Under the pieces are notes generated by a model that saw nothing but the letters and a program-made list of their open reading frames with translations, was not told where the DNA came from and searched no databases. Shown piece by piece: positions 5,909 to 24,321 of a stretch of 64,000 nt of DNA. Source of the stretch: Butyrivibrio sp. NC3005 (GTDB lineage Bacteria; Bacillota; Clostridia; Lachnospirales; Lachnospiraceae); NCBI RefSeq assembly GCF_000424545.1, contig NZ_AUKC01000016.1, positions 1 through 64,000 on the forward strand. Reading direction: 5' to 3'. The translations under genes were made by a program, and so were the position numbers. Numbering within the stretch: the stretch's first letter is position 1; each line of letters opens with the position of its first letter.

Positions 5909-5913
5909 ACTAA

Positions 5914-6030
5914 AGGTCGTTGACCAAGCCGAAGACAGCAGGTGGTGTAAACCGTAAACATGATAGTACCTGCCGAGGAGAAGTTTATAATTTGACTTTT
6001 CGCCTCCCTATGTCTTTGGGAGGTTTTTTG
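5914..6030 (+). promoter_or_regulatory. Ribosomal protein L10 leader with attenuator
   Basis: Matches the known L10 leader arrangement: a stem-loop region containing AAGCCGAAGACAGCAGGT, a partner strand GTACCTGCCGAGGAG, then a terminator hairpin CCTCCC/GGGAGG (6003-6008 with 6018-6023) followed by six T. In the known family the L10(L12) complex binds the first part and tips the RNA toward the terminator. The rplJ SD follows at about 6048. Confidence 0.85.
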
Positions 6031-6061
6031 TTCGGCCAAAATCTATAAGGAGGTTAGAAAC

Positions 6062-20050: not shown

Positions 20051-20241
20051 AGATTTTTATACTAATAACAAAAATTTTAACCTTGATTTTTTGAGTGATA
20101 TGCAGTAGGATGTACAGGGTTTTCATAATATAAACACATTTACGGGGTACAATAATCTTAATCTTTTGATAAAAACATATTATAAACAAGTTATTTTTCT
20201 ATTTTAGAACTTTTTGAAAAGTAACATAGACGAGGAGTTTG

Positions 20242-21249
20242 ATGGAAAGAGATAGAAGACCAGCAGATAGAATGCTTGGAAATATAGCATTATCAGATTT
20301 GAAGACAATTTCACAGGAAGATATTAATAGATTGCTGTTATTTACAGATCAAGTTGATTCGTTTCAAGATTTGATGATGCGATATGAATGTGCGATGTAT
20401 GAAATTCGTACTAAGCTTGATGTCTTGAATAAAGAGTTATCACTCAAAAATAATCGTAACCCTTTTGAATCTATAAAGACAAGAATCAAAACACCATTAA
20501 GCTTGTATGAGAAAATGCAGCGTAAGGGAATAGAATTTTCTGTAGAGAACATAGAAAAGAACATTAATGATGTAGCTGGAATTCGTGTTATATGTTCATT
20601 TCTTGATGATATATACATGCTGGCTGATTGTTTGAGAAAACAGGATGATATTGAACAAATTGAAGTTAAGGATTATATAAAAAATCCAAAGCCAAGTGGT
20701 TATAGAAGCTTACACTTAATATTGCAAGTGCCTATTTTTTTGACACATCAGAAAAGCTTTATGAAAGTAGAAGTCCAGTTTAGAACAATAGCAATGGATT
20801 TCTGGGCAAGTCTTGAACATAAAATGAAATATAAAAAAGATGTTCAGGATGCTGAGATGATTACAGAAGATTTGGCTTTTTCTGCAGATTTAATTAACCA
20901 GTTGGATAGAAGAATGCAACAAATAAGAGAAAGAATTGATGCTGATAAGAATTCTAATGATGTGGTTGATAAAATAACTGCTAAGGATTTTGAGTTGGAA
21001 ACAGAAAACATACAAGTTTTGGATGAAACAAAGTCAGAATCTAATGTAAAAAATAAAAGCGCAAATGATGCTCCTAAAAATAAAGAAGATTCATCTGATC
21101 CAGATTATTTGTATGATTCTATGATTGAGTCGGATAAATTGGATATTAAAGAAAACTATGATGGCGCAGGTAACAAATACTTGTATGTAAGAGCATCTAG
21201 TGATGAAAGAAAAAAAGCAAATTATGTTCAATCGTCAATTAATGAATAG
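20242..21249 (+). CDS. Small alarmone synthetase-like protein (RelA/SpoT domain, RelQ/YjbM type)
   Basis: A stand-alone (p)ppGpp synthetase domain of about 230 residues without hydrolase, TGS or ACT domains. Motifs: KTRIKTPLSLYEKMQRKG, GIRVICSFLDDIYMLADCL, KPSGYRSLHL and VEVQFRTIAMDFWASLEHKMKY. These match the RelA_SpoT synthetase fold, which moves pyrophosphate from ATP to GDP/GTP. A charged C-terminal extension of roughly 95 residues (Lys/Asp/Glu/Asn rich) is longer than in Bacillus RelQ. ATG 20242 follows GAGGAG. Monocistronic, ending in a terminator shared with the opposing methyltransferase. Confidence 0.88.
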   Translation: MERDRRPADRMLGNIALSDLKTISQEDINRLLLFTDQVDSFQDLMMRYECAMYEIRTKLDVLNKELSLKNNRNPFESIKTRIKTPLSLYEKMQRKGIEFSVENIEKNINDVAGIRVICSFLDDIYMLADCLRKQDDIEQIEVKDYIKNPKPSGYRSLHLILQVPIFLTHQKSFMKVEVQFRTIAMDFWASLEHKMKYKKDVQDAEMITEDLAFSADLINQLDRRMQQIRERIDADKNSNDVVDKITAKDFELETENIQVLDETKSESNVKNKSANDAPKNKEDSSDPDYLYDSMIESDKLDIKENYDGAGNKYLYVRASSDERKKANYVQSSINE

Positions 21250-21377: not shown

Positions 21378-22241
21378 TTAACAAGATGTCCATCTTCCGC
21401 TTGCTCCACATGGTAATACAAGACCGTTACTACTAATAGGAATTCCTATTTCTTGTGCCTCAACAACACCTTTATGAATTGGATTTAGAACAGTATTGAG
21501 CATGTAAGATAAAACTGCCGGCTGTAATCCCGTGGTATATGAATTAATAAGGAAAAATAAAGGATCATCAGATAACAATTTTGAGCACAATTCAACAAAT
21601 GGGAAAATATTATCTTCAATCTTCCAAATTTCTCCTTTTGGACCTCGACCGTAAGAAGGAGGATCCATGATAATAGCATCATAATGATTGCCGCGCCTGA
21701 TTTCGCGCTGAACAAATTTAATACAATCATCAACAAGCCATCGAATGGGCGCATCAGCCAAACCTGAGGAACATGCGTTTTCTTTTGCCCAAGTAACCAT
21801 TCCTTTGCTGGCATCAACATGAGTAACACTTGCACCAGCAGCCGCAGCTGAAACAGTTGCTCCTCCTGTATATGCAAAAAGATTTAAAACTTTAATAGGT
21901 CTGTTGGATTTTTTGATTAATTCAGAAAACCAATCCCAGTTAGCTGCTTGCTCCGGAAAAAGACCAGTATGCTTAAAACTAAAAGGTTTAAGGTGAAATG
22001 TTAGTTCGTTATAATGAATTGTCCATTCTTGTGGAAGATTATTAAAATCCCATTCGCCGCCACCTTTGTTGCTTCTATAATAGTGACCATTTGGTTTTTT
22101 CCATCCAAAGTGATTTTTGGGTGTATTCCATATTACCTGAGGATCTGGACGAACAAGAAGGTAATCACCCCATCGTTCAAGTTTTTCACCATGTGAAGTG
22201 TCAATTACTTCATAATCTTTCCAATTGTTAGCTAACCACAT
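21378..22241 (-). CDS. Class I SAM-dependent methyltransferase, RlmI-like
   Basis: A 287-residue methyltransferase of the PF10672 type (related to 23S rRNA methyltransferases RlmI/RlmK). Motif I is VLNLFAYTGGATVSAAAAGA, the acidic ribose-binding residue follows in THVDASKGMV, and the catalytic motif IV is MDPPSYGRG. The N-terminal part lacks a full PUA domain. It is the only reverse-strand gene before 52 kb, and its promoter region is the long AT-rich gap at 22.3-22.5 kb. Confidence 0.85.
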   Translation of the reverse strand: MWLANNWKDYEVIDTSHGEKLERWGDYLLVRPDPQVIWNTPKNHFGWKKPNGHYYRSNKGGGEWDFNNLPQEWTIHYNELTFHLKPFSFKHTGLFPEQAANWDWFSELIKKSNRPIKVLNLFAYTGGATVSAAAAGASVTHVDASKGMVTWAKENACSSGLADAPIRWLVDDCIKFVQREIRRGNHYDAIIMDPPSYGRGPKGEIWKIEDNIFPFVELCSKLLSDDPLFFLINSYTTGLQPAVLSYMLNTVLNPIHKGVVEAQEIGIPISSNGLVLPCGASGRWTSC

Positions 22242-22869
22242 AAATTACTCCATTCTAAAACATCAATATAAATATAATAGAAACGTATCAAAAACGTATA
22301 GCAAATAACTAAACAAAATATTTGTTGTAAAAATTATTTAGCCATTCAAATCGTACATCTTGTAGAAAGACATCTTCATTCTTTACAAGAGTACATGAAT
22401 GCGCAAAAATCATTTTTGTAGCGTTTACTAATAAATTATTATTTGGTTAAACAATATATTTTAAAGCATAGCTTTGATTATACATTATTTATCGGAATGT
22501 TGAAAGGTGATAATATATTTTTTGCAAAATGAAGTTAGAAAAGAAATAAGGCAAGAAGAGAATAAAATAAGAAATGAAACAAAGTAAGAATTGAAATGGA
22601 GAAAGATATGAAATAGAGAAAGAAACAAGAAAGAAAATAAAGTAATAGGAAGTAAAAGCGAGATAATTTCAGTAGGTATAGAAAGGGGGATTCAGGCTGG
22701 ATAGGTTAATTATATAATGTTAATAAATTATTTATACTATAAATATAGTATTTGAGACGAAAAAGTGTAGAATGTTTAAATGTAAGGCAATAAAACAAAA
22801 AATAATAATCAATAAACTTGATTATTATTATCTAATTTAGTAATTCAGAAACTTTTTTTGATAAACCAC
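22242..22869. other. Gene-free AT-rich gap with a purine-rich tract
   Basis: No coding region is supported here. About 22520-22670 is almost pure A/G on the + strand with loose repeats of the kind GAAATAAGAA and GAGAAAGA. The rest is simple AT-rich sequence leading to the rpsJ promoter. Confidence 0.6.
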
Positions 22870-22898
22870 TTGCAAATAAACAAAAAAAGGAATAATAT
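22870..22898 (+). promoter_or_regulatory. Promoter of the S10-spc-alpha superoperon
   Basis: TTGCAA (22870-22875), 17 bases, TAATAT (22893-22898), placed just before the folded leader. Confidence 0.6.
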
Positions 22899-22904
22899 AG
22901 CAAA

Positions 22905-23175
22905 TGCTGTGACATGATAGCGATGAAGCGTGAGGTTGCCACATAATCCAGTGATGTGGGTTTTCCGCGGAGCGAATGTCCTGAGGCTTAATTTTTAAGC
23001 CACACAATCATGACGACAAGTCACTGTACAAGCAAATGATGTCTGTTACAAATCCAAATGGATTGATGGACAGAAACGACGTGAAAGTGAAAATCTGGTT
23101 TATTTTGATGATGGACCAGGACACACACGGGAGAGTGTACAGTCACCGCTTGTCGTACTTATCAAAAAGTGCGAA
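22905..23175 (+). promoter_or_regulatory. Large folded leader RNA of rpsJ
   Basis: About 270 bases with strong long-range pairing. ACGACAAG (23013-23020) pairs with CTTGTCGT (23149-23156) and, two bases inside, ACTGTACA (23023-23030) pairs with TGTACAGT (23136-23143). CATGAT (22913-22918) pairs with ATCATG (23007-23012), directly stacked on the first helix. Local hairpins: CCACAT/ATGTGG, GGCTTAA/TTAAGCC and TCTGT/ACAGA. A competing hairpin TCGTACTT/AAGTGCGA (23153-23175, one G-U) uses part of the long-range strand and ends at the SD. The S10 operon is L4-regulated in E. coli; the ligand here is unknown. Confidence 0.75.
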
Positions 23176-23193
23176 AAGGAGGCGACTTTTTTT

Positions 23194-23505
23194 ATGGCAA
23201 ATCAGGTAATGAGAATCACACTTAAGGCATATGATCATCAGTTGGTTGATGCATCTGCTAAGAAGATTATCGAAACAGTCAAGAAGAACGGATCTCAGGT
23301 TAGTGGACCTGTACCGCTTCCAACAAAGAAGGAAGTTGTTACAATTCTTAGAGCCGTACATAAGTACAAGGATTCTAGAGAACAGTTCGAACAGAGAACA
23401 CATAAGAGATTGATCGATATCATCACCCCTACACCTAAGACAGTCGATGCATTGCAGAGACTTGAAATGCCTGCAGGTGTTTACATTAACATTAAGATGA
23501 AATAA
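23194..23505 (+). CDS. rpsJ: 30S ribosomal protein S10
   Basis: S10/NusE (103 residues), a 30S head protein and partner of NusB/NusG in antitermination. Reads [19 protein letters not shown] and ends [15 protein letters not shown]. The SD AAGGAGG is followed by a T-rich spacer. First gene of the superoperon. Confidence 0.98.
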
Positions 23506-23652
23506 TCATCACGAAACATTAAATTCACCTCTACTAGTATGATGCAAGGCGCATGATGCCGCGACACTGGAAATTATCATCATTATGGATAATGAAACGA
23601 CATTGCGATCGTAACACGCATCCGCTGTAGATGAATAAAGGAGGTAATTTTC

Positions 23653-24321
23653 ATGAAGAAGGCTATTTTAGCTACTAAAGTCGGAATGACACAGATCTTC
23701 AAGGAAGACGGTTCCCTTGTTCCGGTAACTGTACTTCAGGCAGGACCTTGTGTTGTAACACAGGTTAAGACTGTTGAAAACGATGGCTACGAAGCTGTTC
23801 AGGTTGGCTTTGTAGATGCAAAGGAAAAGGTTTACATGGATGGCAGACTTAGACACACACATGGTGTTAATAAGCCTGAGGCTGGTCATTTCAAAAAGGC
23901 TGGCGTTACATCTAAGAAGTATGTAAGAGAGCTTAAGCTTGAGAACGCTACAGAGTATCAGCTTGGTGCTGAAATCAAAGCAGATATCTTTGAGAACGGC
24001 GATAGAATCGATGCTACAGCAATCACAAAGGGTAAAGGATTCCAGGGCGCTATTCGTAAGAATGGTCAGCATAGAGGACCTATGGCTCACGGTTCCAAGT
24101 TCCATCGTCATCAGGGTTCTAACGGTTCAAGTTCTGATCCTAGCCGTGTATTCAAGGGCAAAGGGATGCCTGGTCACATGGGTAGCGTAAGAGTTACAAT
24201 TCAGAATCTTGAGATTGTTAAGGTAGACGCTGAGAAGAATCTTATTCTTGTTAAGGGCGCTATCCCAGGACCTAAGAAGGGCCTTGTTACAATCAAAGAG
24301 ACAACGATCGTTGAGGCATAA
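23653..24321 (+). CDS. rplC: 50S ribosomal protein L3
   Basis: L3 (222 residues) with the [16 protein letters not shown] start and the peptidyl-transferase-reaching loop [17 protein letters not shown]. The 147-base gap after rpsJ is unusually long for this operon and contains a small hairpin (ATTATCAT/ATGGATAAT). Confidence 0.98.

Follow-up and report, generated by a model that had tools for sequence, protein, structure and literature searches.

A conserved 3′ domain beyond the RF03136 core in rpsJ leaders of Butyrivibrio sp. NC3005 and other Clostridia: a candidate expression platform for control of the S10 operon

INTRODUCTION

Many ribosomal proteins are encoded in the S10 operon, and how Gram-positive bacteria control it is unsettled. 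A ribosomal protein leader (r-leader) for S10 in Firmicutes was established by Yao et al. (2007), according to the accessible text of PMC7247131, which adds many examples from Clostridia and, in that text, gives them without further discussion. A motif upstream of rpsJ in Peptostreptococcaceae, RLC-47-1, has been described with 87 representatives from three genera of this one family (PMC11109978, accessible text), and a study of C. difficile states, in the available portion of PMC3933415, that the data there do not support the L4 model known from E. coli.

Here we describe the leader ahead of rpsJ in a stretch of 64,000 nt from Butyrivibrio sp. NC3005 (positions 1 to 64,000 of contig NZ_AUKC01000016.1), which as a whole is referred to below as the window. 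The ORF directly 3′ of the leader (23194–23505, + strand, 103 aa) is taken from its translation to be rpsJ, encoding S10, an assignment consistent with the Rfam family found upstream, and the ORFs that follow presumably constitute the S10 operon, their gene names likewise being assigned from translations. Between a tuf-like ORF and rpsJ lie two further ORFs, which from their translations we take to encode a RelA/SpoT-like (p)ppGpp synthetase (20239–21249, + strand) and a SAM-dependent methyltransferase (21378–22241, − strand). Elsewhere in the window an ordinary L10 leader, RF00557, is present (5911–6038, + strand; 62.3 bits against 44).

METHODS

The stretch 22850–23200 was scanned with the 4227 families of Rfam 15. 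Genus and family genomes were scanned for RF03136 with a stricter filter, which loses weak matches; 183 distinct loci matched, of which 157 were fetched and 26 left out, and rpsJ was found in 150 of the 157, the other seven giving no tblastn match. Alignment A1 holds 91 of these 150 leaders, the 59 excluded being near-duplicates, L145, L147, L149, over-long leaders and then 37 removed by hand. Alignments A2 and A4 hold 24 of 43 proposed rows and 47 of 70 rows, respectively. The set labelled ‘class’ consists of 25 same-class loci together with L180, which is from the same phylum.

RESULTS

The 5′ third of the leader is an RF03136 core

The sole real match in 22850–23200 is to RF03136, the S10-Clostridia ribosomal protein leader. 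It scores 70.3 bits, where the gathering score is 35.1; two further matches at E values up to 10 are noise. A sequence-only reading had suggested that this leader might lie outside the described families and be a clostridial solution separate from that of E. coli. The first part of this claim fails for 22915–23019, which matches a described family, an S10 leader in Firmicutes being already in print, and the second part stands. The features of the 5′ region and of the start of translation are as follows.

22870–22898, + strand: promoter-like TTGCAA / 17 bases / TAATAT, found by eye, 8 of 12 matches
22909–22914, + strand: GUGACA, conserved 5′ sequence of the leader, from alignment A1
22915–23019, + strand: RF03136 core, matched over its full length (1–81)
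22928–22930/22966–22968 and 22932–22935/22962–22965, + strand: helix P1, paired in 96.9 % of cells of A1
22939–22943/22955–22959, + strand: helix P2, paired in 96.4 % of cells of A1
22978–22984/23008–23014, + strand: helix P3, GUC-C-UGA / UCA-U-GAC, placed by homology to GUCC/GGGC and enclosing a small hairpin
23177–23182 and 23187–23193, + strand: Shine–Dalgarno sequence (SD) AGGAGG and U tract, both near-invariant in A1

The promoter-like pair is absent from the program's promoter list (4 listed versus 3.0 expected) and was not the best pair picked for the window leader in the comparison with relatives. Pairs with at least 9 of 12 matches precede 74 of 128 relatives' leaders, and for 65 of them the spacing between the end of the second hexamer and GUGACA is 9–10 bases, that in the window being 10. 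Within GUGACA itself the G, U, G and C are invariant in 91/91 rows of A1, and A is either A or G.

Helices P1 and P2 covary, with four pairs of each changed on both sides among the 91 rows of A1. P3 could be placed in 63 of 79 leaders, and its first four pairs, GUCC/GGGC, form in 61–63 of those 63, with two-sided changes. Rfam draws this last helix in the other register, UGUC/GACA; both registers pair in the family, GUCC/GGGC covaries across class, order and phylum, and GACA is missing from short leaders, so that the Rfam register may be off. The Rfam model covers the 5′ third of the leader and ends at 23019: its last bases are part of strand A of the long-range helices described below, the rest of which lie outside it, and it includes no AB helix, I1, I2, hairpin A or SD region.

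The leaders examined, that of the window among them, lie upstream of rpsJ, as expected of RF03136. The family was matched once per genome in 47 of 61 genus genomes and 137 of 150 family genomes; 48 of 57 order genomes match the core, as do 71 of 118 in a class-wide draw and 68 of 159 in a phylum-wide draw (38 of the 159 above cut-off).

A 3′ domain is closed by long-range helices

Between the core and the SD lies a second set of pairings, listed here.

23013–23020, + strand: AB1 5′ strand, ACGACAAG, exact 8 bp with CUUGUCGU at 23149–23156
23149–23156, + strand: AB1 3′ strand, CUUGUCGU, same evidence
23023–23030, + strand: AB2 5′ strand, ACUGUACA, exact 8 bp with UGUACAGU at 23136–23143
23136–23143, + strand: AB2 3′ strand, UGUACAGU, same evidence
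23042–23046/23070–23074, + strand: inner hairpin I1, UCUGU/ACAGA; two-sided changes in all 5 pairs, pairing in 83.4 % of cells
23080–23083/23126–23129, + strand: inner helix I2, CGUG/CACG; two-sided changes in 3 of 6 pairs, pairing in 87.3 % of cells
23118–23135, + strand: conserved strand AGGACACACACGGGAGAG, comprising the I2 motif and the linker to strand B
23153–23160/23167–23174, + strand: hairpin A, UCGUACUU/AAGUGCGA, overlapping AB1 by UCGU

The coordinates bear out the earlier claim that two exact 8-bp long-range helices close a domain ahead of rpsJ; AB1 and AB2 together enclose 144 nt. Searches with loose patterns, in which up to 4 (core), 4 (strand A) and 6 (strand B) errors were allowed, found strand A in 149, strand B in 147 and the core in all 150 of the own-genus and own-family leaders. 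In A1, AB1 pairs in 99.5 % of cells and AB2 (7 pairs counted) in 95.8 %, with one-sided changes only in both; since AB is near-invariant in genus and family, the family data neither prove nor refute the pairing.

Covariation of AB was found among more distant leaders. A first test of cognate complementarity with wider windows gave a weak result: in 3 of 26 leaders the cognate partner scored above every non-cognate partner and each of 60 shuffles. The windows were then narrowed, one to 24 bases and the other to no more than 55, and L190, whose motif had been miscalled, was dropped. The 24 bases after P3 were then paired with the stretch after the I2 motif, and complementarity to a leader's own partner was compared with that to other leaders' partners. 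Among 25 distant leaders (24 of the same class plus L180 of the same phylum, two mis-set windows, L211 and L212, being kept) the own-partner mean was 23.36 versus 17.09 for non-cognate partners, and 0 of 20,000 permutations were as high. The replaced pairs can be read directly in L180 (GCGACA, GGGGAA / UUCCCC, UGUCGC), L199 (GACUUUAAGAC / GUCUUAAGUC) and L202 (GGGUUUC, UAUAC / GUAUA, GGAACCC). The 19 leaders of the order set gave no AB covariation signal (26.08 versus 25.87; 5815 of 20,000 permutations as high), because the sequence barely varies there.

Two-sided changes in alignment A3 affect 2 of 8 pairs of AB1 and 3 of 7 of AB2; over the whole platform 13 of 23 pairs are changed on both sides, against 4.8 in shuffles, a comparison that leans towards the structure because A3 was fitted to it. 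A covariance model built on the platform by itself (R1) found 24 of 28 order genomes, with one match each, and 35 of 54 loci at E values up to 0.01. Within AGGACACACACGGGAGAG, ACAC and CGG are near-invariant in A1, and a related GAHACRCMCGG is present in class and order leaders. The sequence-only reading had made its proposal depend on these pairings being kept in related rpsJ leaders, and both the strand counts and the distant covariation agree with it. The 3′ domain next to the ribosome-binding site is real and conserved, and it looks like the switching half of the leader.

As to its distribution, an insert is present in 24/24 of the retrieved class loci that lie outside the family and hold rpsJ (a further locus, L206, is without rpsJ). 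Among the best 28 new phylum loci, 26 have the SD right after P3, in the form GUCCG-loop-CGGGC-GAAAAGGAGG, and the other two carry a long insert, one of them (L168) belonging to the same class and one (L180) to the same phylum. Of the 27 leaders examined from outside the class, 26 have no platform, and in these the core abuts the SD. Among the best-scoring matches examined, the platform is therefore frequent within the class and seldom seen beyond it.

Hairpin A competes with AB1 beside the SD

The helix GUACUU/AAGUGC (23155–23160/23167–23172), of 6 bp with one G-U pair, can be lengthened into hairpin A, whose 3′ end lies two bases ahead of AGGAGG. Hairpin A and AB1 are mutually exclusive, as UCGU of the long-range strand is common to both; we take this to be the competing hairpin near the SD that had been predicted to use part of that strand. 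The hairpin A pair at A1 columns 290–329 is UG, UA, CG or AU in 51/51 distinct rows. Hairpin A occurs in 19 of 21 order leaders versus 50 of 420 shuffles; in more distant leaders the figures are 5 of 19 versus 55 of 380, hardly above chance. This arm of the device is therefore young or local.

Thermodynamic folding of the window leader gave a mixed picture. The regions 22870–23200 and 23010–23160 are more stable than their shuffles (z −4.23, 0/100 equally stable; z −4.24, 0/200, respectively). In the ensemble of 22905–23224, pair probabilities are 0.79–0.99 for hairpin A, 0.01–0.15 for AB1 and 0.19–0.23 for AB2, so that hairpin A is favoured when the whole leader is folded, and AB and the core are not. 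The core helices P1 and P2 also reach only 0.00–0.01 in this ensemble despite their good covariation; single-sequence folding is thus a poor judge here, and the comparative data decide.

Several other pairings were considered and set aside. A second hairpin candidate by the SD, AAAGUGCG/CGACUUU on the U tract, pairs in 93.6 % of cells with zero two-sided changes, shows no excess over shuffles and is degraded in order leaders (e.g. L222, L226 and L230); it was rejected as a conserved switch arm. A pairing of AGGUUGC in the RF03136 core with GCGACUU beside the SD, present in the minimum free energy fold, was rejected: it forms in 99.5 % of cells with no two-sided changes, has a pair probability of 0.08–0.13 in the window and is broken in order leaders with GGGGAC, GGUCUU, GGCUCU or GGCUGU at this place. 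The RNAalifold proposals AGGAG/CUUUU (SD-U) and GAUA/UGUC likewise show no two-sided changes. In an extended pairing of the 5′ GYUGUGRC onto strand B (GUCACCRC) the C/U and G/A changes are uncoupled by inspection; the inner GUGRC/GUCAC pairing may form.

The seven U residues at 23187–23193 of the window, between the SD and the AUG of rpsJ, are an observation in their own right: no conserved pairing accounts for them, and the tract is kept in the family and order leaders examined and not in the short leaders.

A candidate attenuator in other Clostridia

In the distant set an intrinsic-terminator-like hairpin (−8 kcal/mol or better) lies between strand A and the I2 motif in 13 of 26 leaders versus 3 of 78 shuffles; in the diverse set 12 of 26 leaders still lack a terminator when a looser U-run is accepted. 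A second set of 70 loci was collected with a search pattern taken from P3 and strand A, and of these 10 were skipped (all without the I2 motif, one also without rpsJ). Among the 60 usable loci 54 have a terminator (54 of 70 overall) versus 8 of 180 shuffles, often of the form GCCCAGG...CCUGGGU-UUUU; the genera represented include Acetivibrio, Ruminiclostridium, Thermoclostridium and Pseudobacteroides. In the family 2 of 128 leaders have one. None was found in the 24 leaders of the order set, of which 23 are from the order and one is from the family; two of the 24 regions were mis-anchored, so that the stretch searched was empty or one base long. The window has no terminator-like site in 22750–23700, nor was any found in the insert, and its leader does not class as an r-leader of the terminator type.

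The 5′ arm of these terminators can pair with the 3′ strand of P3. In an ungapped search of 54 loci the best upstream partner of the terminator arm lay on the P3 3′ strand in 25, in the upstream core region in 24 and elsewhere in 5. With a bulge allowed, a test chosen after the ungapped result, GAAACCGGGC and GCCCAGGUUU pair over 7–10 bp in the 14 duplexes displayed, and the duplex between the P3 strand and the terminator arm is at least as stable as −8 kcal/mol in 53 of 54 cases versus 48 of 270 pairings with other terminators at the same loci. The same pairing in the diverse set was found in 13 of 14 cases versus 24 of 76 with other terminators. The p-values, 5e-28 and 1e-5, overstate the significance because the rows are related; both sets agree. 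The simplest reading is that, in these relatives, P3 and an antiterminator compete for one strand, in which case whatever stabilises P3 favours termination. We therefore regard the relatives' platform as a candidate transcription attenuator.

A second element before rplC, and comparison with rRNA

In relatives a second covarying element, UCUAGGAUGA-stem-UCCGCUGUAGA, lies between rpsJ and rplC, right before the rplC SD. A pattern search found it in 97 of 138 loci of the family and 21 of 26 of the order set, but in 2 of the 24 class loci and none of the 28 phylum loci. Compact copies (47 of 70 rows) have two-sided changes in 7 of 9 pairs (75 cells versus 22.5 in shuffles), and a model of the element, R2, found 27 of 38 order genomes with one match each. 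Examples of the compact form are as follows.

L061, 965–1019, − strand: compact rplC element
L217, 2057–2116, + strand: compact rplC element

The form in the window, 23531–23632, is larger and is missed by R2. At gathering scores Rfam gave no match to the element in L217, L224 and L061, and the window gave only noise. The element may be an r-leader in its own right, for L3, L4 or L23. Other Clostridia (e.g. L188, L189, L193 and L203) have a different short hairpin before rplC, AUGUUGG...CCAACCAAUAACC, which adjoins the SD.

Four pieces were also compared with the 16S and 23S rRNA of E. coli K-12, used because no 23S match was obtained in the 13 genus genomes searched (its own included); none of the likenesses was convincing. 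One of the eight comparisons, that of the window platform with 16S, stood out (5 of 200 shuffles as good), and as this stretch is variable between relatives the likeness is taken as chance.

DISCUSSION

We propose that the leader is a two-domain autoregulatory S10 leader, in which the RF03136 core is joined to a clostridial expression platform that acts translationally in the window, and we give this explanation as a whole a probability of about 0.55. On this model the core would be the likely binding site of a ribosomal protein encoded by the operon, and the 3′ domain would be an expression platform inserted, in Clostridia, between the core and the ribosome-binding site, with the AB long-range helix closing the platform and bringing the two together. 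In many other Clostridia the P3 3′ strand would be held within P3 in the off state, leaving the terminator free to form, and in the on state would pair with the terminator 5′ arm as an antiterminator. In the window, which has no terminator, the remaining platform (AB, I1, I2 and hairpin A) is kept; ligand-stabilised P3 would there most probably shift pairing from AB1 to hairpin A and so lower rpsJ translation. As the window has no terminator and retains the closing helix, we infer that control by translation is more likely there than control by termination. The SD is unpaired in both the AB1 and the hairpin A forms as drawn, so that this effect on translation is a guess. The description of the leader as a regulatory switch is accordingly upheld as regards mutually exclusive pairings; that the window leader actually switches is presumed, and the case is firmer in the terminator-bearing relatives.

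The alternative that retains most weight, at perhaps one chance in five, is that the core alone regulates beside the SD, as it would in the short leaders, the platform being a tolerated insertion whose closing helix serves to keep core and SD close. Such an arrangement accords with the core standing directly before the SD in 26 of the 27 leaders examined outside the class and with the closing helix being the best-kept part of the platform, yet it leaves the covariation of I1, I2 and hairpin A and the sequence conservation of the I2 motif to be explained, and a terminator within the platforms of many relatives is unexpected of an inert spacer. The possibility that the window also terminates transcription early, by a weak or factor-dependent terminator that the scan missed, seems to us improbable: its close structural relatives are candidate attenuators and a U tract follows the SD, but no terminator-like site was found in 22750–23700 or the insert, the family and order-set counts are 2/128 and 0/24, and the A-U-rich hairpin that precedes the U tract shows no covariation. 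Equally improbable is control of S10 by this conserved structured element without a ribosomal protein, for example through another factor or RNA stability, for while no rRNA likeness was found by sequence and some RNAs regulating ribosomal protein genes may not bind such a protein (PMC7247131, accessible text), the leaders examined stand before rpsJ and feedback by an operon protein is described in the same text as usual for such leaders.

Returning to the two-domain model, a broader reading is offered tentatively and with rather less than even confidence, namely that a single protein-binding core works with three platforms within one phylum: with none, with an attenuator, and with a terminator-free translational strand exchange among P3, AB1 and hairpin A. 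As part of that reading, and no more firmly than the whole of it, the attenuator's terminator arm would be a copy of the P3 5′ strand, and the terminator-free form would be that of the window's order. If so, the leaders would exemplify a single RNA core that has passed between control of transcription and control of translation. A fuller leader model, together with a candidate attenuator in the culturable Acetivibrio and Ruminiclostridium, makes both ligand and mechanism directly testable.

In the literature searched, which mostly excluded subscription papers, we found no description of a platform or attenuator for the S10 leader; one may be drawn elsewhere. Among known systems, r-leaders of the terminator/antiterminator kind resemble the relatives' leaders in the competition of a 5′ structure with a terminator for one strand, and differ from the window leader, which has no terminator. 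The L4-controlled S10 leader of E. coli is also a structured leader, premature termination being one level of its control (PMC3933415, accessible portion), a likeness taken from the description of that leader. RLC-47-1 is likewise a structured rpsJ 5′ UTR from a related lineage, known here by its description rather than its structure and with no terminator named in the accessible text (PMC11109978). RF03136 itself has the same site before rpsJ, the same core sequence and the same helices P1 and P2, with a score far above the cut-off. The window leader differs from it in running on beyond the end of the Rfam model at 23019; the last helix, for which both registers pair in the family, is drawn by Rfam in the other one. 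The RF03136 core is thus already known, and the 3′ platform is what lies outside the Rfam model.
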